Below, piece after piece: positions 5,182 to 12,997 of a stretch of 12,997 nucleotides of DNA. Source of the DNA: a bacterium (GTDB lineage Bacteria > 4484-113 > JALSIF01); assembly GCA_026981635.1 (NCBI GenBank), contig JALSIF010000241.1:1-12997 (forward strand), read 5' to 3'. Both the position numbers and the translations under genes were made by a program. Numbering within the stretch: the first letter of the stretch is position 1; each line of letters starts with the position of its first letter. A model generated the notes under the pieces. The model was not told the origin of the DNA, did not search any database, and worked only from the letters and a program-made list of their open reading frames with translations.

Positions 5182-5985
5182 TTGGGAGAAGAAGCAACAT
5201 ACCTACCGGTCGTGCTGGCAGGGGAGACCCCCAGCGATGAATGGAAGAGGTTTGTCCCCTCGGGCTTTCGCTGCCACCTGAGGATGGGGGAGGAAAGCCT
5301 CCTTGAGCGGGTCTGCCGGGTGGCCGCCGAGGCCACCGGCACACCCCCCCTGGTGCTTGCCCATCCCGAGGTGGTGGCGGGGCAGAGGCTGCCCGAGGGG
5401 ACCAGACGCAGCGACCCGGGAAGCACCATCAGCGGGAACCTGGCCAGGCTGAGGGAGCTTTCCATTTCCCAGCCCTACCTCCTCATCCTCTCCTCCGACC
5501 TGCCCTTCATTGAGAGCCGTCACCTTAGGGAACTGATCCAGTTTCACCAGCAGAGCGACCCGCCCGCCGAGGGGATCTATCCGGCGGTGGAGGTGGAGCT
5601 CTGCCGAAGGAGGTTTCCCGGCCTCCGGCGCACCACCGTCCCCCTGGATGGGAAGCGGCTCACCGGGGGCAACGTCTTTATCCTCCGGCGCGACCGCCTG
5701 GACTCACTGCTTACCCGGCTGGAAGCCTTCCTCAGGGCGCGCAAGAACCCCCTCCGGATGGCCCTGCTCATCGGGCCGGGGGTGCTATTTAGGGCCATAT
5801 TGGGCCGTCTTACCTCGGCGGACCTCAAGGGCCAGATCAGGCGTCTGTTTGGGGTGCGGGCAGAGCTCTACCTCTCCCCCTATCCGGAGATCGCCACCGA
5901 CGTGGACCGGGTGGAGCAGTGGGAGAGGATCCTTGAGCTGAGCGCTGGAAGCGCTTCCGAGAGGGGTCCAGCTCAGAACCAGTAG
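5182..5985 (+). CDS. MobA-like NTP transferase-domain protein
   Basis: A 267-aa protein with the GT-A nucleotidyltransferase fold. It shows an initial PVVLAGE strand-loop (residues 9-15), an SSDLP metal-binding motif (104-108, Asp106), RRFPGLRRT and TGGNVFIL (161-168), ARKNP (186-190), and SPYPEIATDVD (232-242) with the second acidic site. This long set matches a family of MobA/IspD-related proteins annotated only as NTP transferases, so the product is not known to be the molybdenum cofactor. The usual glycine-rich nucleotide loop after LAG is altered here (ETPSDEW). The start is assigned to TTG 5182 because the first beta strand begins just after it and no ATG is available upstream. It overlaps the next, convergent gene by 13 bp. 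Family is firm; substrate and exact start are not. Confidence 0.85.
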   Translation: MGEEATYLPVVLAGETPSDEWKRFVPSGFRCHLRMGEESLLERVCRVAAEATGTPPLVLAHPEVVAGQRLPEGTRRSDPGSTISGNLARLRELSISQPYLLILSSDLPFIESRHLRELIQFHQQSDPPAEGIYPAVEVELCRRRFPGLRRTTVPLDGKRLTGGNVFILRRDRLDSLLTRLEAFLRARKNPLRMALLIGPGVLFRAILGRLTSADLKGQIRRLFGVRAELYLSPYPEIATDVDRVEQWERILELSAGSASERGPAQNQ

Positions 5986-6626
5986 GGGGCGGTAAGGGCG
6001 ACCAGCCGGGCCAGGGTGGCATCGCTGACCTCCTCCGCCGGCAGGCTCACCCCCCGAGCATCAAATCCGATGCGGAAGCTCTCCCCCGGCTCGCCAGCTA
6101 CGAAGCCGTCCAGCAGGTGGCCCCACTCCTGAATGAGCTTTCCCGCCTCCCCTTCGCTGAGAAGCTTTACGGTGAGCTTCCCCCGCGCCCCATCGGAGAG
6201 GGGATAGTTTTTCAGGGTGAGGGAGAAGAGGGGATAGCCCAGCTCCACCAGCGAGGCGGCAAGCTCGCGCACATTGAGTTGTGCCGAGGAGAAACTCACC
6301 CCGCCCTCCACCACCGTACTGAGGGCGGCACTCATCAACTCAAAGCGCTTGCCCCGGGCCGAGATGAGCGCCCTGCCCCGCTCCACCGGAAAGTAGGCCA
6401 TCACCTCGGTAAGGACATCAAACTCCTCCTTCACCACCTGCTGGCCGTCAAAGACCTCGTGGGTCTTGCGCTCAAGCAGCTTGAAGGAGAGGAGAAGATC
6501 CCCCGCCCCCGCCGCCAGCACCTGAAAGCCGTAGCGGCGCTTAGGGGAGAAGGCCCGCCGCTCAACCAGCTCGGCTAGCTCCGCTGGCTCGGGGGCGTGG
6601 GCCACCTGATAGAGGTAGAAGCGCAT
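5973..6626 (-). CDS. Conserved-looking protein of unknown function, 217 aa
   Basis: I do not recognise this protein. It is soluble, with no signal peptide, membrane helix or cysteine cluster. The predicted pattern alternates beta strands and helices: RFYLYQVA at the start, a FDVLTEVMAYFPVERGRAL strand-rich middle, a long amphipathic segment near residues 110-140, and a C-terminal helix ending ARLVALTAPYWF. The regular length and coherent hydrophobic pattern, together with the convergent 13-bp overlap with the upstream gene, support a real gene. The ATG at 6626 has no Shine-Dalgarno; TAGAAT ends 9 nt upstream, giving a leaderless promoter. It is divergent from the portal gene across 87 bp, so it is either the last host gene before the phage-like cluster or a partner of that cluster. 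Confidence 0.8.
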   Translation of the reverse strand: MRFYLYQVAHAPEPAELAELVERRAFSPKRRYGFQVLAAGAGDLLLSFKLLERKTHEVFDGQQVVKEEFDVLTEVMAYFPVERGRALISARGKRFELMSAALSTVVEGGVSFSSAQLNVRELAASLVELGYPLFSLTLKNYPLSDGARGKLTVKLLSEGEAGKLIQEWGHLLDGFVAGEPGESFRIGFDARGVSLPAEEVSDATLARLVALTAPYWF

Positions 6627-6635
6627 GGGCAGCCA

Positions 6636-6641
6636 ATTCTA
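6636..6641 (-). promoter_or_regulatory. Candidate -10 box of the 217-aa gene
   Basis: TAGAAT on the minus strand ends 9 nt before the ATG at 6626, and no ribosome site lies between. No clear -35 is seen at 16-18 nt. Confidence 0.45.
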
Positions 6642-6659
6642 GTGCCACCCTAGCAAGGG

Positions 6660-6689
6660 GGCTTGACAAAACTGGACGCTGGCTTGTCC
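6660..6689. repeat. Operator-like repeats before the portal gene
   Basis: GGCTTG occurs at 6660-6665 and 6681-6686, exactly 21 bp (two helical turns) apart. Overlapping it, GACAA (6665-6669) and TTGTC (6684-6688) form an inverted pair with 14 nt between. The position just upstream of the -10 suits a regulator site for the virion operon. Both repeats are short, so chance is possible. Confidence 0.3.
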
Positions 6690-6702
6690 TTCTCTGTATA
6701 AT
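6673..6702 (+). promoter_or_regulatory. Promoter of the virion operon
   Basis: A perfect TATAAT (6697-6702) lies 11 nt before the portal ATG. The best hexamer at -35 spacing is TGGACG (6673-6678, 18-nt spacer, 4 of 6 matches). The striking TTGACA at 6663-6668 is 28 nt away, too far for standard sigma-70 use. The mRNA would have a leader of only a few bases and no Shine-Dalgarno. Confidence 0.55.
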
Positions 6703-6713
6703 TTCGGGCGATT

Positions 6714-7952
6714 ATGGCAATTGTCAAGGCAGACGCGGCCCAGGGGCCGGCTACTGGCTGGTATATTGATACAAAGTCTTATCTTGCCAAACGGCAGGTG
6801 CGCCACCAGTGGCTCCGGCTCTATCGGGCCTACTATGCCGGCGACCCCTACTCCGACCCCAGGCGCTGGCGCAGCCTCCTGGGCTACCCGGAGGAGGTCC
6901 AGCCGCCCCGGGTGCAGGTGAACTTCGCCCGCCTGGTGGTGGAGCGGCCCATGGGCTGGGTGCTGGGGGGGCTTAGGGAGGTGAAGGTCAGGGCCGAGCG
7001 GCCGGAGGAGGGGGAGTTTGCGGAGAAATTTTTCCGCCAGGCGGTGGCTCCCCTGCTGGAGGAGCTCCATGTGGAGCTGGCGGTAAGCGGCGACGCCCTG
7101 CTGGTCCTGCGCCTGCCCGAGGAGGCGGGGGGGCTGCCCCGCCTGGAGCTGATCCCAGCGCTCCACTTTGACGTTGAGCCGGGCGAAGGGGGGCCGCGCA
7201 TGGTGCGCATCACCTACCAGAGCCGGCGGGGAGGCAAGCTCTATGAACACCGCGAGGAGCTGATGGCCGGCTCCGGGGTGAGGTACCGGCCCCGGCGGGT
7301 GGAGCCGGAGACGGTGGGGCTGATCTTTCGCCGCAGCGGCCGGCCCCAGGTGGCCGAGCGGGTTCCCTACCCGGCCGGGTTTGTCCCCTTCATTCACCTT
7401 CGCAACCGCCCCCGTCCCGACCGCATTTACGGCACCAGCGATCTGCGCGACCTCATAAGGCTGATTGACGACTTCAACCTGAAGCTCTCCGAGCGCAGCC
7501 GCTACCTCAGCCGCACCCTGACCCCGCTAATAAAGAACGTAAACGGCCAGGTGGTGGGGGGAGGGCCCAGTCCCGACGGGGTGATCTCGGTGGTGGGAGA
7601 GCAGGTGGAGCTGGACTACCTCCGGCCAGGGGTAGACCCCGCCTCGGCGGGGGAGCACCTGAGGATGCTCCGCCAGCTCATCAGCGAGCTCTCCGGGGCG
7701 GCCCTGATGGAGCCTTCGGAGCTCTCCAGCATCGGCGCCCTGTCGGGGTTTGCCCTGAGCCTGCTCATGCACCCAATTGAGAGGCTCACCGCCCGCAAGC
7801 GCGGGCTGATCTTTGAGCAGGGGGCAATGGGGGCTGTTCTTATGGCGGTGGAGTTTGGCCGCCTGAGCGGCGCCCTACCCGGGCCACCGGGCGCCCCCCT
7901 GCCCCAGATTGAGTTCTCCTTTGAACCCATGCCAGGAGGTGAAAGAAGTTGA
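6714..7952 (+). CDS. Phage portal protein (SPP1 gp6-like)
   Basis: A 412-aa protein matching the portal family by composition, motifs and place. Portals form the ring at one capsid vertex through which DNA is packaged and to which the tail attaches. Helical N-terminal KRQVRHQWLRLYRAYYAGD (about 25-43) is followed by Asn-Phe-Ala-Arg-Leu-Val-Val near residue 70, as in SPP1-type portals where the peptide contacts the wing. The core has beta strands, then GTSDLRDLIRLIDDFN near residue 240, leading into the long stem/crown helices. The C-terminal part has an MEPSELSSIGALSG-type loop and a long helix. It is somewhat shorter than SPP1 gp6 (503 aa). The ATG at 6714 has no Shine-Dalgarno. Its stop overlaps the next start by 4 bp. 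No terminase gene precedes it. Confidence 0.9.
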   Translation: MAIVKADAAQGPATGWYIDTKSYLAKRQVRHQWLRLYRAYYAGDPYSDPRRWRSLLGYPEEVQPPRVQVNFARLVVERPMGWVLGGLREVKVRAERPEEGEFAEKFFRQAVAPLLEELHVELAVSGDALLVLRLPEEAGGLPRLELIPALHFDVEPGEGGPRMVRITYQSRRGGKLYEHREELMAGSGVRYRPRRVEPETVGLIFRRSGRPQVAERVPYPAGFVPFIHLRNRPRPDRIYGTSDLRDLIRLIDDFNLKLSERSRYLSRTLTPLIKNVNGQVVGGGPSPDGVISVVGEQVELDYLRPGVDPASAGEHLRMLRQLISELSGAALMEPSELSSIGALSGFALSLLMHPIERLTARKRGLIFEQGAMGAVLMAVEFGRLSGALPGPPGAPLPQIEFSFEPMPGGERS

Positions 7953-8266
7953 GCGAGGAGATGAAGGAACTGCTTCCCGAAGGGGAGAAGAAGAAGGATG
8001 GGGCCGAGGAGCAGGAGGTGGAGGTGGAAGTGGTCTTCACCCCAGAGATTGAGCAGGAAGGTGAGCAGGAGGTGAGCGAAGAGGGAGAGAGCGGACCAGG
8101 TGGCGAGGCGAAAGCTTCGCCAGTCCATTCGGGAGAGGAAGGGCCGGCGGCCCTTGAGGCGGTTCCCCCGCCCCTCAGGGAGCCTGCCGTGGAGCTTGGG
8201 GAGCTTTCCGGCCCCGAGCTCATCCGCCTGGCCTACCACCAGAGGAGCCCTTCCCTGGAGGGCTGA
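7949..8266 (+). CDS. Acidic, probably disordered protein in scaffold position
   Basis: A 105-aa protein that is extremely acidic, with repeated Glu/Gly/Lys stretches (VEVEVVF, EQEGEQEVSEEGE), and no predicted globular core except a short helical C-terminus (SGPELIRLAYHQRS). It lies between portal and capsid genes, where tailed phages keep the scaffolding protein (and often a protease). The length and charge could suit a short scaffold or a capsid-assembly chaperone, though it lacks the long coiled coil of typical scaffolds. The TTG at 7949 overlaps the portal stop, and AGGAGGT 8 nt upstream fixes this start. The function is inferred from position and composition only. Confidence 0.7.
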   Translation: MSEEMKELLPEGEKKKDGAEEQEVEVEVVFTPEIEQEGEQEVSEEGESGPGGEAKASPVHSGEEGPAALEAVPPPLREPAVELGELSGPELIRLAYHQRSPSLEG

Positions 8267-8294
8267 GAGAGAAACCACTTAGGGAGGTTTTGAA

Positions 8295-9200
8295 GTGGCA
8301 CTGACACTGCAAGAGGCAGCCAAGCTGGAGACCGATCTGCTGAGAAAGGGGGTCATTGAGACCTTCGCCAGCGAGAGTCCGGTCCTGAGGTACCTGCCCT
8401 TCATTGAAGTGGAGGGAAACAGCTTCCGCTACGCCCGCACCCAGGCCCTGCCGGGGGTGGAGTTTCGCTCGGTGAACCAGCCCTACACCGAGTCCACCGC
8501 CACCTTTGACCAGCGCAGCGAGAACCTGGTCATCCTGGGCGGGGTGGCCGACGTGGACCGCTACCTGCAACAGACCCGAGGCTCGGTCAACGACCAGCGG
8601 GCCATCCAGACCGAGCTCAAGGTGAAGGCGCTGGCGCTGGCCTTCACCCGGGAGTTCTTCCACGGCGACAGCACCGCCAACCCCAACAGCTTTGACGGGC
8701 TGGACCAGCGGGTCACCGCCGGCCAGACCATCGTGGCGGGAGTGGACGGAGCGCCCCTGGACCTGGACATGATGGACCAGCTGGTGGACGCGGTGGTGGG
8801 CGGCCCCGACGTGATCTTCATGAACCGCAACGTGCGCCGCCAGCTCACCAAGCTGGCCCGCCAGTCCACCCTGATCCAGATCGGGTTTGATGACTTCGGG
8901 CGCAGCGTCTTCCGCTACGACGGGGTCCCCATTGAGGTGGTGGACAAGGATGAGCAGGGGGCAGACATCCTGGGCTTCAACGAGACCCAGGGGACCAACA
9001 CCACCACCTGCTCGGTCTGGGCGGTGCGCTTCGGGGCCGACCAGTTCGTGGCCGGGATCACCAACGGCGGCATTCAAGTTGAGGACCTGGGCCTGCTCTC
9101 CAACCCGCCGGTCTACCGCACCCTGATTGAGTGGTACGTGGGGCTGGCCGTCTTCCGGGACGACGCCATCGCGCGCCTCAAGGGGATCGTGGAGGTCTAG
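8295..9200 (+). CDS. HK97-fold major capsid protein (GP7-like)
   Basis: A 301-aa protein with the layout of the shorter HK97-fold major capsid proteins that lack an N-terminal delta domain. The N-arm begins MALTLQEAAKLETD and is followed by an ESPVLRYLPF strand, a FRYARTQALPGVEFR E-loop-like region, and TESTATFDQ. A long spine helix spans ~100-120 (QRAIQTELKVKALALAF), then a FHGDS... FDGLDQR loop, P-domain strands around PDVIFMNRNVRRQL, and a closing A-domain EDLGLLSNPPVYRT... DDAIARLKGI. This pattern matches the GP7-like capsid family. The GTG at 8295 has AGGGAGG 7 nt upstream. No prohead protease gene is visible nearby, consistent with a capsid that matures without N-terminal cleavage. Confidence 0.9.
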   Translation: MALTLQEAAKLETDLLRKGVIETFASESPVLRYLPFIEVEGNSFRYARTQALPGVEFRSVNQPYTESTATFDQRSENLVILGGVADVDRYLQQTRGSVNDQRAIQTELKVKALALAFTREFFHGDSTANPNSFDGLDQRVTAGQTIVAGVDGAPLDLDMMDQLVDAVVGGPDVIFMNRNVRRQLTKLARQSTLIQIGFDDFGRSVFRYDGVPIEVVDKDEQGADILGFNETQGTNTTTCSVWAVRFGADQFVAGITNGGIQVEDLGLLSNPPVYRTLIEWYVGLAVFRDDAIARLKGIVEV

Positions 9201-9202
9201 CG

Positions 9203-9409
9203 GTGAACCGTCCCCTCTCGGTCCAGCAGGCCTGCACCTTCATCGGGCGGCTCCGGCTGATCAACCGGATCACCGGCCAGAACCTCATGGGGGTGGGCTC
9301 CCGGCCCACCCCCCGGCGGCGGCTAAAGAGCCTCACCCATCGTCGGCCCCTGTCCCTGGATGAGCTCATGAGCAGGAGGGAGATGGAGTGGACGCGGCAG
9401 GCTACCTGA
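9203..9409 (+). CDS. Small basic protein, 68 aa, unknown
   Basis: I do not recognise this protein. It is strongly basic (about 14 Arg/Lys, with a PRRRLK run in the middle). The N-terminal helix contains FIGRLRLINRITG, and the C-terminal helix LDELMSRREMEWTR is of mixed charge. The GTG start follows the capsid stop by 2 bp, with GGAGG 7 nt upstream, and the end overlaps the next gene by 22 bp; both support a real gene. Position between capsid and connector suggests a virion or assembly role, for example capsid cementing or DNA contact, but nothing in the sequence proves it. Confidence 0.7.
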   Translation: MNRPLSVQQACTFIGRLRLINRITGQNLMGVGSRPTPRRRLKSLTHRRPLSLDELMSRREMEWTRQAT

Positions 9410-9948
9410 AGCTTCTGGTGGGGGACCGCGACCCCCAGGCACCCCTCTTCTCCACCGAGGAGTACGAGGCCATCCTGTGGAGCCACCGGCTTTCCCCCGG
9501 GGAGCTGGCCCGGCTGGGGCTTTCCGCCGGCGCGGATGGACGGGTGAGAATGAGCCTAAGCCCCATCGGCCCCGAGCCCACCACCCTCTACGCCGCCCCC
9601 CGGGGCGGGATCCTTGACCAGGGGGCGGAGCTCCTGCTGGACGGGGCGGTGGTGGACCCCCAGGTCACCCCCTACACCCTCCACGGAGGCGAGGGCAGGG
9701 TGGAGTTCCAGACCGCCCCGGCGGCGGGTAGCAGGCTGGAGCTTTTGGCCTACCTTGCGGACCTGCGCCAGGCGGCCGCCGCCGCCCTGCTCATGGTGGC
9801 AAGCGACCGGGCAAGGCTTGCCCAGAAGGTAAGGCTGGACGGGCTGAGCGGCGACCTTGAAAAGGCGGCCCAGGAGGTGAGGCGGCAGGCGGCGGCCATC
9901 AGCGCCCTGCCTAGGCCATTGAGTCTGGGAGGTGAGCCGATCCTGTGA
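9388..9948 (+). CDS. Head-tail connector (adaptor) protein
   Basis: A 186-aa protein. The N-terminus resembles adaptor proteins that sit below the portal, with a short helix (AGYLKLLVGDRD) and an FSTEEYEAILWSH segment. A beta-rich insert follows (residues ~60-115, with GGILDQGAELLLDGAVV and YTLHGGEGRVEF), then a helical core DLRQAAAAALLMVASDRARLAQKV that matches the main helix of gp6/gp15-type connectors. It ends in a second helix (DLEKAAQEVRRQAAAI). The GTG at 9388 has AGGAGGG 7 nt upstream. The stop overlaps the next GTG by 4 bp. The connector role rests on helical pattern and gene order; the beta insert is unusual for small adaptors. Confidence 0.65.
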   Translation: MDAAGYLKLLVGDRDPQAPLFSTEEYEAILWSHRLSPGELARLGLSAGADGRVRMSLSPIGPEPTTLYAAPRGGILDQGAELLLDGAVVDPQVTPYTLHGGEGRVEFQTAPAAGSRLELLAYLADLRQAAAAALLMVASDRARLAQKVRLDGLSGDLEKAAQEVRRQAAAISALPRPLSLGGEPIL

Positions 9949-10292
9949 ACGCCTTTCCTGCCAGTCTGTTGGAGAGCCTGCTTCGCCGGCTGGGCCGGGA
10001 GAGCACCCTGACCGTCACCTGGTACGACCAGAGCGGCGAGCAGCAGGCGGTGGTCACCGTTCCCCTGCTCAGCCTGCCCAAGTGGGTGGAGATGGCAGGT
10101 GCCCCCACCGCCCAGTCCCTGCGCGCCCCCGACCTTCGTCGCCTGCGGCTGGTGATGGGCTACGACCAGACCCTGACCAAGGCCCAGCGCCTCACCCTGG
10201 ACGGGGTCCAGTATGCGGTGGAGGCCACCCGCGTGCTGGGCAGCGAGGAGGGGCCGGTGGCGGTGGTGCTGGAGGTGGTGCGGGTTGATTGA
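9945..10292 (+). CDS. Head-closure (stopper)-like protein
   Basis: A 115-aa, mostly beta protein with a short N-terminal helix (ASLLESLLRRLG). Strands TLTVTWYDQSGEQQAVVTVPLL, RLRLVMGYDQTLTKAQRLTLDGVQYAVEATRVL and VAVVLEVVRV follow. The 'dG.rY.V.......' hairpin near 85-95 is typical of small beta-barrel head-closure proteins such as SPP1 gp16. It is the second gene after the connector, the usual stopper place. GTG start with GGGAGGTGAG upstream. Its stop overlaps the next gene's start region by 8 bp. Confidence 0.6.
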   Translation: MNAFPASLLESLLRRLGRESTLTVTWYDQSGEQQAVVTVPLLSLPKWVEMAGAPTAQSLRAPDLRRLRLVMGYDQTLTKAQRLTLDGVQYAVEATRVLGSEEGPVAVVLEVVRVD

Positions 10293-10758
10293 GGTGATCG
10301 TATCGGTGCGCGACCATATCCTTTCCCTGAGCGACGCCACCGCCCCGGGCGACCCCAACTGGGGCGACGACCTCAATCCCCACCACACCCTGCCCGCCTT
10401 TGTCCTCACCACGGTGGAGATCGGCGGCGAGGACCGGGCGGGGGAGGGCCTCACCCTGATCAGGGGCCGCTTCCTCCTCGCCAGGCTGGCGCGGGAGAAC
10501 CGGGTGGGGCAGGCCATGGCCGACCTCACCCGGGTGCTCGCACAGCTTCCGGTGGGGGCCCGGGTCCCGGTCCGGGCGGTTAGCGCCACCCCCCAGGGCT
10601 ACCGGGCCGACGGAGCGGAGCTGGGCAGGCTCACCATCACCCGCTGGCTTAGGCTGGGGCTCAGACGCGAGCGGGGCAGCCCCGATGCGGTGGCCGCCCA
10701 GGCGGAGATTGAGCTAACTGGCCTGCTTCCACCAGGAGGATACGGCGATGGTACTTAA
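10285..10758 (+). CDS. Tail-terminator/tail-completion-like protein
   Basis: A 157-aa alpha/beta protein in the position of the tail terminator, which caps the tail tube and joins it to the head. It begins VIVSVRDHILSL and has a DLNPHHTLPAFVLTTVEIGGE segment, a helix ARENRVGQAMADLTRVLAQL, and strands VRAVSATPQGYRADGAELGRLTITRWLRLGL before the C-terminus. I assign the TTG at 10285, since GGAGGTGG lies 7 nt upstream; a GTG at 10294 is an alternative. It overlaps the gene before by 8 bp and the gene after by 11 bp. The role is inferred mainly from order. Confidence 0.6.
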   Translation: MIEVIVSVRDHILSLSDATAPGDPNWGDDLNPHHTLPAFVLTTVEIGGEDRAGEGLTLIRGRFLLARLARENRVGQAMADLTRVLAQLPVGARVPVRAVSATPQGYRADGAELGRLTITRWLRLGLRRERGSPDAVAAQAEIELTGLLPPGGYGDGT

Positions 10759-11515
10759 CGGCATCTCAACCCACACCTTCGGGCCTGCCCGGCTCTGGGT
10801 GGACCGGCGCTACCTGGGCGAGCTGGAGCTCTGCCGGCTGGAGGTCCAGGAGGAGGTGAGCCGGCTGGAGCTGGGGGGCGATGGGGGGTTGGCCACCCTC
10901 AGGGCCGCCTACCCGGCCCGCCGCTCCCTCACCCTCATCGGGGTGGTGGGCAGGCTTGAGCCGGAGAGCATGCCCTACCTTATGGCGGCGGGCATGAAGC
11001 AGCTCATCCCGGCAGGCCAGGCGGTGAGCACCGAGGAGCTGGCGGTGCTACGCTCCGACCAGCCCTACCAGCTGGCCGAAAAGCCCAGCGCCAGCCCTAC
11101 GGTGACCGACCCCAGCGGGGGCACCACCTACCAGGAGGGGGTGGACTACACCTACGACCCCACCCAGGGCTGGATCACCGCCCTAAGCGGCGGCCAGGCG
11201 GAGGGCAAGCTGGTGCTCATAAGCTACACCTACACCGCCCCGGCCCGGGTCACTCTTGGGGTAAGCGACAGCCAGCTCACGCCGGTGGAGGTGCGCCTGG
11301 TTCACCACCACCCCGACGGCAAGTCCAGCCTCTCCCTGACCATCTGGCAGGCGGTGGTTCGGCCGGTGGGGGCGCTGGAGTTTCGCCGCGATGAGATGGT
11401 AAGCGGCCAGCTCCTGGTTGAGGCCCTGTGGGACGAGTCCCATCCGGGCGAGGAGCTGGGCAAGCTCACCTTCACCGGCCCCGCCTATGCGGAGCTTGCC
11501 CACCTGAGCCCGTAG
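10748..11515 (+). CDS. Major tail tube protein
   Basis: A 255-aa beta-rich protein. The start (STHTFGPARLWVDRRYLGELELCRLEVQEEV) and the fold strands RRSLTLIGVVGRLEPESM fit tail tube proteins of long-tailed phages, which stack as hexamer rings to form the DNA conduit. Residues ~116-166 form an inserted strand domain with TTYQEGVDYTYDPTQGW and GKLVLISYTYTA. This kind of insert is seen in several tail tube proteins and projects from the tube. The last ~85 residues return to the core (QLTPVEVRLVHHHPDG, SLSLTIWQAVVRPV, EELGKLTFTGPAYA). The ATG at 10748 has AGGAGGA 7 nt upstream. A non-contractile tail is likely, since no sheath gene is seen. Confidence 0.8.
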   Translation: MVLNGISTHTFGPARLWVDRRYLGELELCRLEVQEEVSRLELGGDGGLATLRAAYPARRSLTLIGVVGRLEPESMPYLMAAGMKQLIPAGQAVSTEELAVLRSDQPYQLAEKPSASPTVTDPSGGTTYQEGVDYTYDPTQGWITALSGGQAEGKLVLISYTYTAPARVTLGVSDSQLTPVEVRLVHHHPDGKSSLSLTIWQAVVRPVGALEFRRDEMVSGQLLVEALWDESHPGEELGKLTFTGPAYAELAHLSP

Positions 11516-11516
11516 G

Positions 11517-11822
11517 ATGAGCAGGCACTACTACACCATTGAACTTTCCAGCGGACGCCGCTTCACCGCCCGCCGGCTCACGGTGGGCGACTGGTTGGAC
11601 CTCTACCACCGCCTGCCCCCCGCCCTCTTCGGTGGAGAATCCCGGGGCCTGAGCCGGGGAGAGCTGGGCGGAGCACTGCAGGGCCTGCTGGACCTTGCCG
11701 CCAGGGCGGTGGAGCGCGAGCCTGGGGAGCTCAGCCAGGAGCTCACCCCCGACGAGCTGGCCGAGCTGGTTGCCCAGGTGATCGGTCGGGAGCTTGAGCT
11801 GGAGGGTGGGGAGGATGGGTGA
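11517..11822 (+). CDS. Tail assembly chaperone-position protein 1
   Basis: A 101-aa protein beginning with a beta hairpin (YYTIELSSGRRFTARRLTVGDWLDLY) and continuing as acidic helices (LTPDELAELVAQVIGRELELEGG). Two consecutive small acidic genes between tail tube and tape measure are the normal place of the tail assembly chaperones (gpG/gpGT in lambda), which coat the tape measure during tube assembly. The ATG follows the previous stop by 1 bp with only a weak ribosome site, suggesting coupled translation. It ends with an 8-bp overlap with the next gene. Confidence 0.65.
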   Translation: MSRHYYTIELSSGRRFTARRLTVGDWLDLYHRLPPALFGGESRGLSRGELGGALQGLLDLAARAVEREPGELSQELTPDELAELVAQVIGRELELEGGEDG

Positions 11823-12063
11823 GTTCAAGCTGGTGATGGCCTGGCTCCAGTCCGAGCTCAGCCTTGGTGACCGCATGCTGGAACGCTTCTCCCCCGAGGA
11901 GATTCCCAAGCTGATGAGGCTGGTCCAGCTCAGGAAACTGGAGCAGATGGGGCTGGCCCTCATTGCGGGCGGCAACCCCCAGGAGGGGGAGCGGCTGATC
12001 AACCAGGCCGCCCTGGAACGCACTGCCCTGTTTGGCATCAGGAGAGGGAGCGATGGCGCCTGA
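11815..12063 (+). CDS. Tail assembly chaperone-position protein 2
   Basis: An 82-aa, mainly helical protein (FKLVMAWLQSEL, PEEIPKLMRLVQLRKLEQMGLALIAGG, EGERLINQAALERTAL). The ATG at 11815 lies inside the end of the previous gene, with GGAGGG 8 nt upstream, so independent coupled translation is enough to express it. The frame is open upstream to 11782. It is +1 (equivalently -2) to the first chaperone gene, so a programmed shift of that type could also make a fusion; a lambda-like -1 shift could not. Confidence 0.6.
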   Translation: MGEFKLVMAWLQSELSLGDRMLERFSPEEIPKLMRLVQLRKLEQMGLALIAGGNPQEGERLINQAALERTALFGIRRGSDGA

Positions 12064-12532
12064 TCCCTTCATCCGTGCACCGCTGGAGGAGCGGCTCGCC
12101 CTCCGCCTGGGGCTGGTGCTGGGGCGGGGCGGCAACCTGGAGGAGGCCCTGGCGGCGGTAGCCCGCTCCCTGGTCCGTCGGCTGGAGCGCACCATCGTTG
12201 AGCAGGTGGGTGAGGCGGTGGGCGGTGGAGTGGCGGGAGCCCTCATCGGCGGCCTGGCCGGCGGGCTGGTGGGAGGGCTGCTGGGAGCAGCCATCGGTCG
12301 GCTGCTGCGCAGGAAGCGCCGCCCTCCGGTGCTGAGGCTGCCCGAGCTGGAGCAGGTGCTCGCGGTGAGCTTTCCCACCCAGCTGGTTCCCGCTTCCCCT
12401 TCCCCACAGCCCGCCGGGGTAGAGGTGAGGCTTTCGCTGGAGGGGGTGGTGGGTGACCCCGACCAGGTGGCCAGGGCGGTAAGCGACCACCTGGAGAGCA
12501 CTCTGCGCACCCTGAGGCTGGCAGGAGGTTAG
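12053..12532 (+). CDS. Very short tape-measure-like protein, 159 aa
   Basis: The protein stands in the tape measure position, after the two chaperone-like genes. It has an N-terminal helix region (residues ~10-50), then a glycine-zipper hydrophobic stretch at about 53-82 (repeated GGxxGGLL-type units) that could span a membrane. A basic cluster RRKRR follows at 86-90, then a Pro-rich linker. The C-terminal strand-helix unit VEVRLSLEGVVGDPDQVARAV is typical of tape measure ends. Full tape measures are commonly several hundred to more than a thousand residues, and they set tail length at about 0.15 nm per residue. This one would allow at most about 24 nm, less than the short-tailed RcGTA. ATG 12053 is set by GGAGAGGGAG upstream. 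A plain glycine-zipper membrane protein is the alternative. Confidence 0.6.
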   Translation: MAPDPFIRAPLEERLALRLGLVLGRGGNLEEALAAVARSLVRRLERTIVEQVGEAVGGGVAGALIGGLAGGLVGGLLGAAIGRLLRRKRRPPVLRLPELEQVLAVSFPTQLVPASPSPQPAGVEVRLSLEGVVGDPDQVARAVSDHLESTLRTLRLAGG

Positions 12533-12535
12533 GCG

Positions 12536-12961
12536 ATGCTTCGCTTCTGGAGCGGGTTTGTTGACCACATTGACCTTCCGGACTACCGGCTGGAGCTGAG
12601 GCTGGCCGAAGGCGTCCGCCTGCTCAGGGACCTAAGAGGCCAGACCCAGGTGGTGCGCCCGGCCGCCCCCCTGGAGGATGACCGCATGCGGGTGGAGTTT
12701 CCCTACTTCCGCCTGGAGACCAAGGGCCTCTCCGACACCACCCTGCGCCAGCACCTGGAGGACGGCCTGCGCTTTGGCGGCGAGCAGATCATCTTCGTGG
12801 GCTCCATCGGGGTGGTCCTCAAAGTCGTGGTGGTGGCCTTCCGCCCCGACCTGGCGGTGATACAGCTTGCCCCCAGGACGGCCTGGTTTGAGGCGGTGAT
12901 CACCGCCCGGGGAAGCTACACCGACTTTGACGACCTGACCACCGCCAGCTTCCCCAGCTAG
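12536..12961 (+). CDS. Protein of unknown function after the tape measure, 141 aa
   Basis: I do not recognise this protein. It has mixed alpha/beta content, no signal peptide, and a strongly hydrophobic strand pair near residues 88-105 (IIFVGSIGVVLKVVVVAF). The ATG at 12536 follows the previous stop by 3 bp, with AGGAGG 8 nt upstream. In long-tailed phages this slot usually holds the distal tail protein, which begins the baseplate. A compact, single-domain distal tail protein is possible but not shown; normal ones are usually larger. Repeated aromatic strands (FPYFRLETKG, RTAWFEAVITARGSYTDF) fit a structural protein. Confidence 0.65.
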   Translation: MLRFWSGFVDHIDLPDYRLELRLAEGVRLLRDLRGQTQVVRPAAPLEDDRMRVEFPYFRLETKGLSDTTLRQHLEDGLRFGGEQIIFVGSIGVVLKVVVVAFRPDLAVIQLAPRTAWFEAVITARGSYTDFDDLTTASFPS

Positions 12962-12973
12962 AAGGAAAGAGAG

Positions 12974-12997
12974 ATGGGATTTAGCGCACAAGACCAC
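12974..12997 (+). CDS. Start of next gene in the virion operon, cut by window edge
   Basis: ATG at 12974 with GAAGGAAAGAG upstream opens a frame MGFSAQDH that runs off the right edge. The site, spacing (12 bp after the previous stop) and direction make it the next operon member, but nothing can be said of its product. Confidence 0.5.

Follow-up and report, generated by a model that had tools for sequence, protein, structure and literature searches.

Gene transfer agents (GTAs) have been defined as particles whose proteins derive from tailed phages and are encoded by an endogenized genome, often divided between several loci, that is inherited mostly vertically and co-diversifies with the host; the particles carry mostly random host DNA, are too small for their own gene set, and deliver DNA (PMC9662315). 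GTAs with experimental support are few, namely two alphaproteobacterial kinds and those of Brachyspira, Desulfovibrio, Methanococcus and, recently, Faecalibacterium (PMC11841831, PMC12946183), and a limited literature search found no published report of a GTA in the bacterial candidate phylum named 4484-113 in the literature (PMC11484514, PMC10060404). Here, a compact virion gene cluster was examined in a 12,997 bp stretch of DNA from a bacterium that, to judge from named relatives in its class, probably belongs to this phylum (GenBank assembly GCA_026981635.1, contig JALSIF010000241.1; hereafter the window). The cluster is likely to be the particle locus of an independently domesticated, vertically inherited GTA in which the packaging genes occupy a separate locus.

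Among the closest known systems, RcGTA and the RcGTA-like elements of the Alphaproteobacteria (Rhodogtaviriformidae) likewise have a phage-derived head-tail cluster, several loci, vertical inheritance and raised GC content (PMC9662315, PMC7360931). However, they belong to a different phylum and their portal and capsid proteins to other families, the cluster in the window encoding an SPP1-like portal and a GP7-like capsid. The large terminase subunit (TerL) is encoded by g2 inside the RcGTA head-tail cluster, whereas it is unlinked here, and the cluster was therefore not classed as RcGTA-like. A division of GTA genes between genome sites is also seen in VSH-1 of Brachyspira, though in the account given in PMC3163572 (citing Stanton 2009) a small cluster lies ~16 kb from the main one, whereas here the terminase is far off among cell genes. 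FpGTA I of Faecalibacterium prausnitzii is similarly a compact operon, ~10.5 kb long, in which genes for a portal and a capsid are accompanied by others of phage type, but its operon includes TerS and TerL and its packaging of host DNA has been observed (PMC12946183), whereas packaging is predicted from the genes here. The major capsid protein is 51% identical to that of Paenibacillus phage Tripp and 48% identical to that of Streptomyces phage Rowa, but these are phages with genomes of 54 and 43 kb.

The window is the entire contig C241 of a metagenome-assembled genome of 1.75 Mb in 317 contigs that is 85% complete (G000). A plus-strand run of 12 complete genes, which overlap or almost touch one another, extends from 6714 to 12961 and is followed by the start of a thirteenth at 12974 that is cut by the contig end. 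This agrees with the original prediction, made from the letters of the window, of 13 plus-strand genes in head-to-tail order starting from the portal. The portal gene is separated by 87 bp, as had also been reported, from a divergent gene (5973-6626) encoding a 217 aa protein without a family match. Family and profile searches detected no terminase, integrase or repressor among the genes of the window, and no tRNA was found in it, in agreement with the first description.

The window was compared with ten genomes of one class, which include its own and members of families f2, f3 and f4. The capsid gene was found in six of the ten, as one copy in each, and the capsid proteins of the five relatives are 62-65% identical to that in the window. 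It was absent from the four f2 genomes and from 50 other genomes searched. A scan of named genomes located the capsid gene in contigs of MVCR01 ('Planctomycetales bacterium 4484_113'; G009), JAUWGS01 (CSMAG_2248; G003), JAOZQG01 (GMC4.metabat2.94; G006) and JAGGVC01 (AUK090; G002). The genes are in the same order in all six cluster genomes, starting from the portal without a terminase ahead of it, and no in-frame stops were found in the cluster genes of any of them. No integrase, replication or repressor genes accompany the virion genes in these six genomes, and no att sites were found.

The complete cluster could be followed in G003, where it spans ~10.4 kb and is centrally placed on a 190 kb contig. 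At its 3' end are genes for an 80 aa protein, for a holin-like protein of 103 aa that has a single hydrophobic segment, and for an amidase (phrog_822; E 3e-28). In G004, the last genes of the cluster encode a comparable small protein and an endolysin-like protein. Cell genes follow the lysis-type genes in these relatives. The G003 cluster lies between cell genes, no tRNA was found there, and the sole direct-repeat family detected was a 17 nt near-match. Neither a lysogeny module, terminase or att sites to the right of the virion genes nor restriction to a single strain, any of which would have pointed to an ordinary prophage, was found.

The original prediction had suggested, as one of two possibilities, that the packaging genes are elsewhere in the genome, and one TerL gene was indeed found in G000, on a different contig, where its neighbours encode a short-chain dehydrogenase, a lytic transglycosylase, a TPR protein and a sigma factor. 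Orthologues in G002, G003 and G004 are also alone among cell genes and away from the cluster, and the Walker A and Walker B motifs and the acidic residues of the nuclease are conserved. That the division of the loci is an assembly artefact was ruled out, as the cluster and the terminase operon (~2.2 kb) of G003 are both far from the ends of the long contigs that carry them (190 and 254 kb, respectively). In G006, the N-terminus of a homologue of the small-terminase-like gene of G003 is found at a contig end, and the lack of TerL in this genome is explained by the break in the contig immediately after the start of that gene. No orthologue of the portal, capsid or TerL was found in the four f2 genomes. 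The gene ahead of TerL in G002 and G004, which belong to family f3, has a weak helix-turn-helix (HTH) match and probably encodes the small terminase subunit.

Pairwise identities of the capsid, portal, tail tube, connector, hub and distal-tail proteins and of TerL were found to follow those of RpoB, with r values of 0.91-0.99 that are descriptive because the genome pairs are not independent points, and the capsid protein diverges approximately one to one with RpoB. In an outgroup-rooted RpoB tree, the cluster-free f2 genomes group with the cluster-bearing f4 genomes (support 98/99), and the simplest history is therefore presence of the cluster in the ancestor of the class followed by one loss. 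The six cellular copies of the capsid group together in a single clade (100/97), from which the 21 viral homologues are separate. In G003 and G006, which represent two species of one genus, the cluster occupies the same locus with 21 colinear flanking cell genes. Between these two genomes, the median ratio of nonsynonymous to synonymous changes (pN/pS) is 0.20 for cluster genes and 0.16 for the flanks, so the cluster is under purifying selection similar to that on the flanking cell genes. The conservation in related genomes on which the original prediction of a domesticated, GTA-like particle depended is thus seen in gene order, in reading frames, in selection and, for two species, in location, and together with the lone TerL it supports that interpretation.

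Head, short-tail and lysis genes, an intact terminase, a lack of replication and integration genes, and a vertical history fit the published definition of a GTA. Three of its six features were found from the genes: particle proteins of tailed-phage families (portal, capsid, tail tube, tape measure and TerL), endogenization over several loci (the cluster and the terminase at separate sites among cell genes), and vertical inheritance (the RpoB correlations, compatible trees and the locus shared with 21 colinear genes). On the basis of gene content and history, the assignment to the GTAs is probable. We infer particle formation, packaging of host DNA, transfer and lytic release, as follows. A tailed phage would have been domesticated once, in the ancestor of the class, and inherited vertically since then. 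The cell would build a capsid and a short tail from the cluster operon, and the terminase operon, at its separate chromosomal site, would pack chromosomal DNA into the capsid by headful. The holin-like gene and the endolysin at the 3' end of the operon would then open the cell, and the tail would deliver the DNA into related cells.

All of the evidence for domestication would also fit a capsid-tail particle retained for another job, such as killing competitors or carrying a defined cargo, instead of random chromosomal DNA, and the HTH match of the small-terminase-like protein in f3 would permit a specific choice of DNA. However, killing requires neither a portal nor a terminase, yet TerL has been kept in step with the capsid and its ATPase and nuclease residues are conserved. 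In addition, the cluster showed no gene for a cargo or a toxin. A particle with such a function is therefore considered unlikely.

A lineage-specific temperate phage, or a recently decayed prophage, in which the terminase by chance does not adjoin the portal, was judged very improbable. Capsid homologues are common in phages, and the cellular flanks of the cluster differ between families, indicating that its site has moved or that the chromosomes have been rearranged. Against this, six genomes carry the same set of intact genes without integrase, replication or repressor genes, the locus is shared across species, and divergence keeps time with RpoB. Free viral relatives were also not evident, as neither this portal (best identity 25%) nor this hub was found on any contig in pattern scans of IMG/VR, and the portal had no detectable similarity in 50,697 phage records. 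The nearest viral capsid genes (56% identity) are in phage gene orders, with neighbours that are mostly unrelated. An ordinary phage-like contig is also present in G004 (C48; L045), where, as would be expected of a phage, a terminase is followed by portal-sized genes, many small genes and a 684 aa tape-measure-like gene. Complete tape-measure-like genes in the same place in this contig and related viral contigs encode 684-1187 aa, whereas the counterparts of the tape measure in the relatives that carry the cluster are 184-211 aa. In siphophages, tail length follows that of the tape measure, and as a rule of thumb the tape measure here predicts a short tail of ~25-30 nm. The new small phage that the original prediction had offered as an alternative is now disfavoured.

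A phage satellite that depends on a helper phage for its terminase or for other components could account for a portal without an adjoining terminase, but is scarcely credible given the full set of head, tail and lysis genes, the chromosomal TerL in the same genomes, the lack of any integrase or primase seen, and the vertical history of a cluster that contrasts with the mobility of satellites. Even jointly, the phage and satellite readings have little chance of being correct.

The GTA interpretation is also consistent with base composition, which the original prediction had wrongly described as resembling that of the flanking genes. The GC content of the cluster is 68.2% vs 60.9% in the flank, and that at third codon positions (GC3) is 86.6% vs 78.1%. 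The cluster was GC-richer than its flanks in all four genomes compared (its own and three relatives). Raised GC content of the cluster is a reported GTA trait, part of the RcGTA-like signature (PMC7360931).

The 87 bp intergenic region ahead of the portal gene in the window (6627-6713) must hold the cluster promoter, and TTGACA and TATAAT hexamers are present in it. Both the portal gene and the terminase operon are preceded by CTTGACA-N9-TATAAT in G002 and G004. This sequence was first spotted at these loci and searched for genome-wide afterwards, when exact copies numbered two in G002 (portal and terminase) and three in G004 (portal, terminase and contig C34), with none in the other class genomes searched, including those of f2. 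The spacing of 9 bp between the hexamers does not fit an ordinary sigma-70 promoter, and the TTGACA may be the site of a regulator. The third G004 copy (L217:5121-5142) is ahead of genes for a 114 aa protein of no assigned function and a 194 aa open reading frame (ORF), just past an 848 aa methylase-like ORF, and on present evidence has no link to the particle. A different element is common to the portal and terminase loci of G003. A 46 bp promoter-like element (L042:10343-10388) that is 93-98% identical at several sites in G006 (contigs C106, C92, C68, C109, C133 and C70) is also present ahead of the G003 terminase operon; the G006 copies are mostly at contig ends, and the element may be a promoter-bearing dispersed repeat.

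A gene for a fusion of a response regulator with HATPase_c_2 adjoins the portal gene on the opposite strand in G003 and G006 (L014:10883-11824 and L163:18426-19406; 91% identical), and is followed by a gene for a Ser/Thr kinase; the two are candidates for a stress-type regulator of the particle operon. In G000, the lone TerL gene is tail to tail with one for a sigma-70 family factor (L018:7611-8534), and a shorter sigma factor gene, with a product about 30% identical to that in G000, is ~5 kb from the terminase in G004.

Several observations weigh against a GTA with a split packaging locus. In G009, which is 77% complete, no TerL was detected. In a tree with other terminases, TerL sequences have long branches, and monophyly of the cellular TerL proteins was neither shown nor excluded. 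According to PMC11841831, a DNA-binding domain is missing from the small terminases of known GTAs, and the weak HTH match in the f3 small-terminase-like protein is unlike them. The RcGTA-like signature also includes fewer side-chain carbons than in viral homologues (PMC7360931), whereas the value for the capsid protein here is 2.88 vs 2.75 in 27 viral homologues, and this carbon-saving signature is therefore absent from the capsid protein. At the end of the cluster in G000 (contig C309), no endolysin gene was seen. When the regions upstream of the portal and the terminase in G000 were compared, the best shared word was no longer than in shuffled sequences, and the f4 element ahead of both loci was dropped as evidence for co-regulation because it may be a dispersed repeat in G006. 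A further proposal, that these genomes hold a class-deep GTA family with the packing motor as a separate, co-regulated chromosomal unit that perhaps chooses where packing starts on the host chromosome, is possible but doubtful; a non-random start could be considered because the f3 small-terminase-like protein seems to keep its HTH.

Among the individual genes, all of which are on the plus strand, strong predictions could be made for three products from family matches. The first gene (6714-7952) encodes the portal protein of 412 aa (phrog_64, E 2.9e-16; PF05133 SPP1_portal, 22.8 bits, slightly below the cut-off), which is in the same place in the five relatives. The major capsid protein of 301 aa (8295-9200) matches phrog_212 (E 4.5e-85) and PF20911 GP7 (E 3e-20), and the major tail (tube) protein of 255 aa (10748-11515) matches phrog_807 (E 1e-15) and has homologues in 5/5 relatives. 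The tape measure was assigned tentatively to a very short gene (12053-12532; ~160 aa) from a weak match of the C-terminal part to the phrog_794 tape measure (E 2e-5) and a fitting position.

The functions of the remaining genes are probable assignments by position. Between the portal and capsid genes is one for an acidic protein of 105 aa (7949-8266) without a family match, a probable scaffold, in the place of which the family f4 relatives have a gene for 94-124 aa. The capsid gene is followed by a gene call for a small protein of 68 aa (9203-9409), with a counterpart of 69-119 aa in relatives, and by a gene for a head-tail adaptor-like protein of 186 aa (9388-9948) with homologues in 5/5 relatives and a weak fold match to the phage P1 connector (E 0.009). 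Next are a probable head-closure or connector protein of 115 aa (9945-10292), without a family match, and a probable neck or tail-terminator protein of 157 aa (10285-10758), both placed by position. Two probable tail assembly chaperones, of 101 aa (11517-11822) and 82 aa (11815-12063), are encoded after the tail tube; the G003 counterpart of the first weakly matches the phrog_1442 chaperone (E 0.055), and the second was assigned from its position and its overlap with the neighbouring gene. A probable distal tail protein of 141 aa (12536-12961) has homologues in relatives, and its model, with a predicted local distance difference test (pLDDT) score of 81, gave weak fold matches to tail-tip and tail-tube proteins (best E ~0.02-0.04). 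Fold searches of the two connector and tail proteins returned weak matches only. The final gene start (12974-12997), cut by the contig end, encodes MGFSAQDH, which fits the tail hub protein of relatives (637-642 aa), where the sequence begins with MxFTE.

The C-terminus of a hub protein is encoded on contig C309 together with three further small genes, after which comes a gene for an acetyltransferase. This contig is presumed to adjoin C241 such that the cluster of G000 would run on into it. A gene for a metal P-type ATPase of 1015 aa that has a heavy-metal-binding domain in addition to four YHS domains (L176:1148-4195) was noted near the right end of this cluster. The left half of the window consists of cell genes, with products that include an alpha/beta hydrolase, an FTR1 iron permease and SurA/PPIase-like, HU, V4R-like and MobA-like proteins.

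If the GTA interpretation is correct, a GTA would have been inherited through a class of an uncultured phylum of the sediment and subsurface, and the domestication of phages for gene exchange would be wider than the known cases indicate. The split motor also provides a search rule, namely portal-first virion clusters accompanied by an orphan terminase elsewhere in the genome that diverges at an equal rate, and this would make it possible to test in genome collections how common GTAs are.

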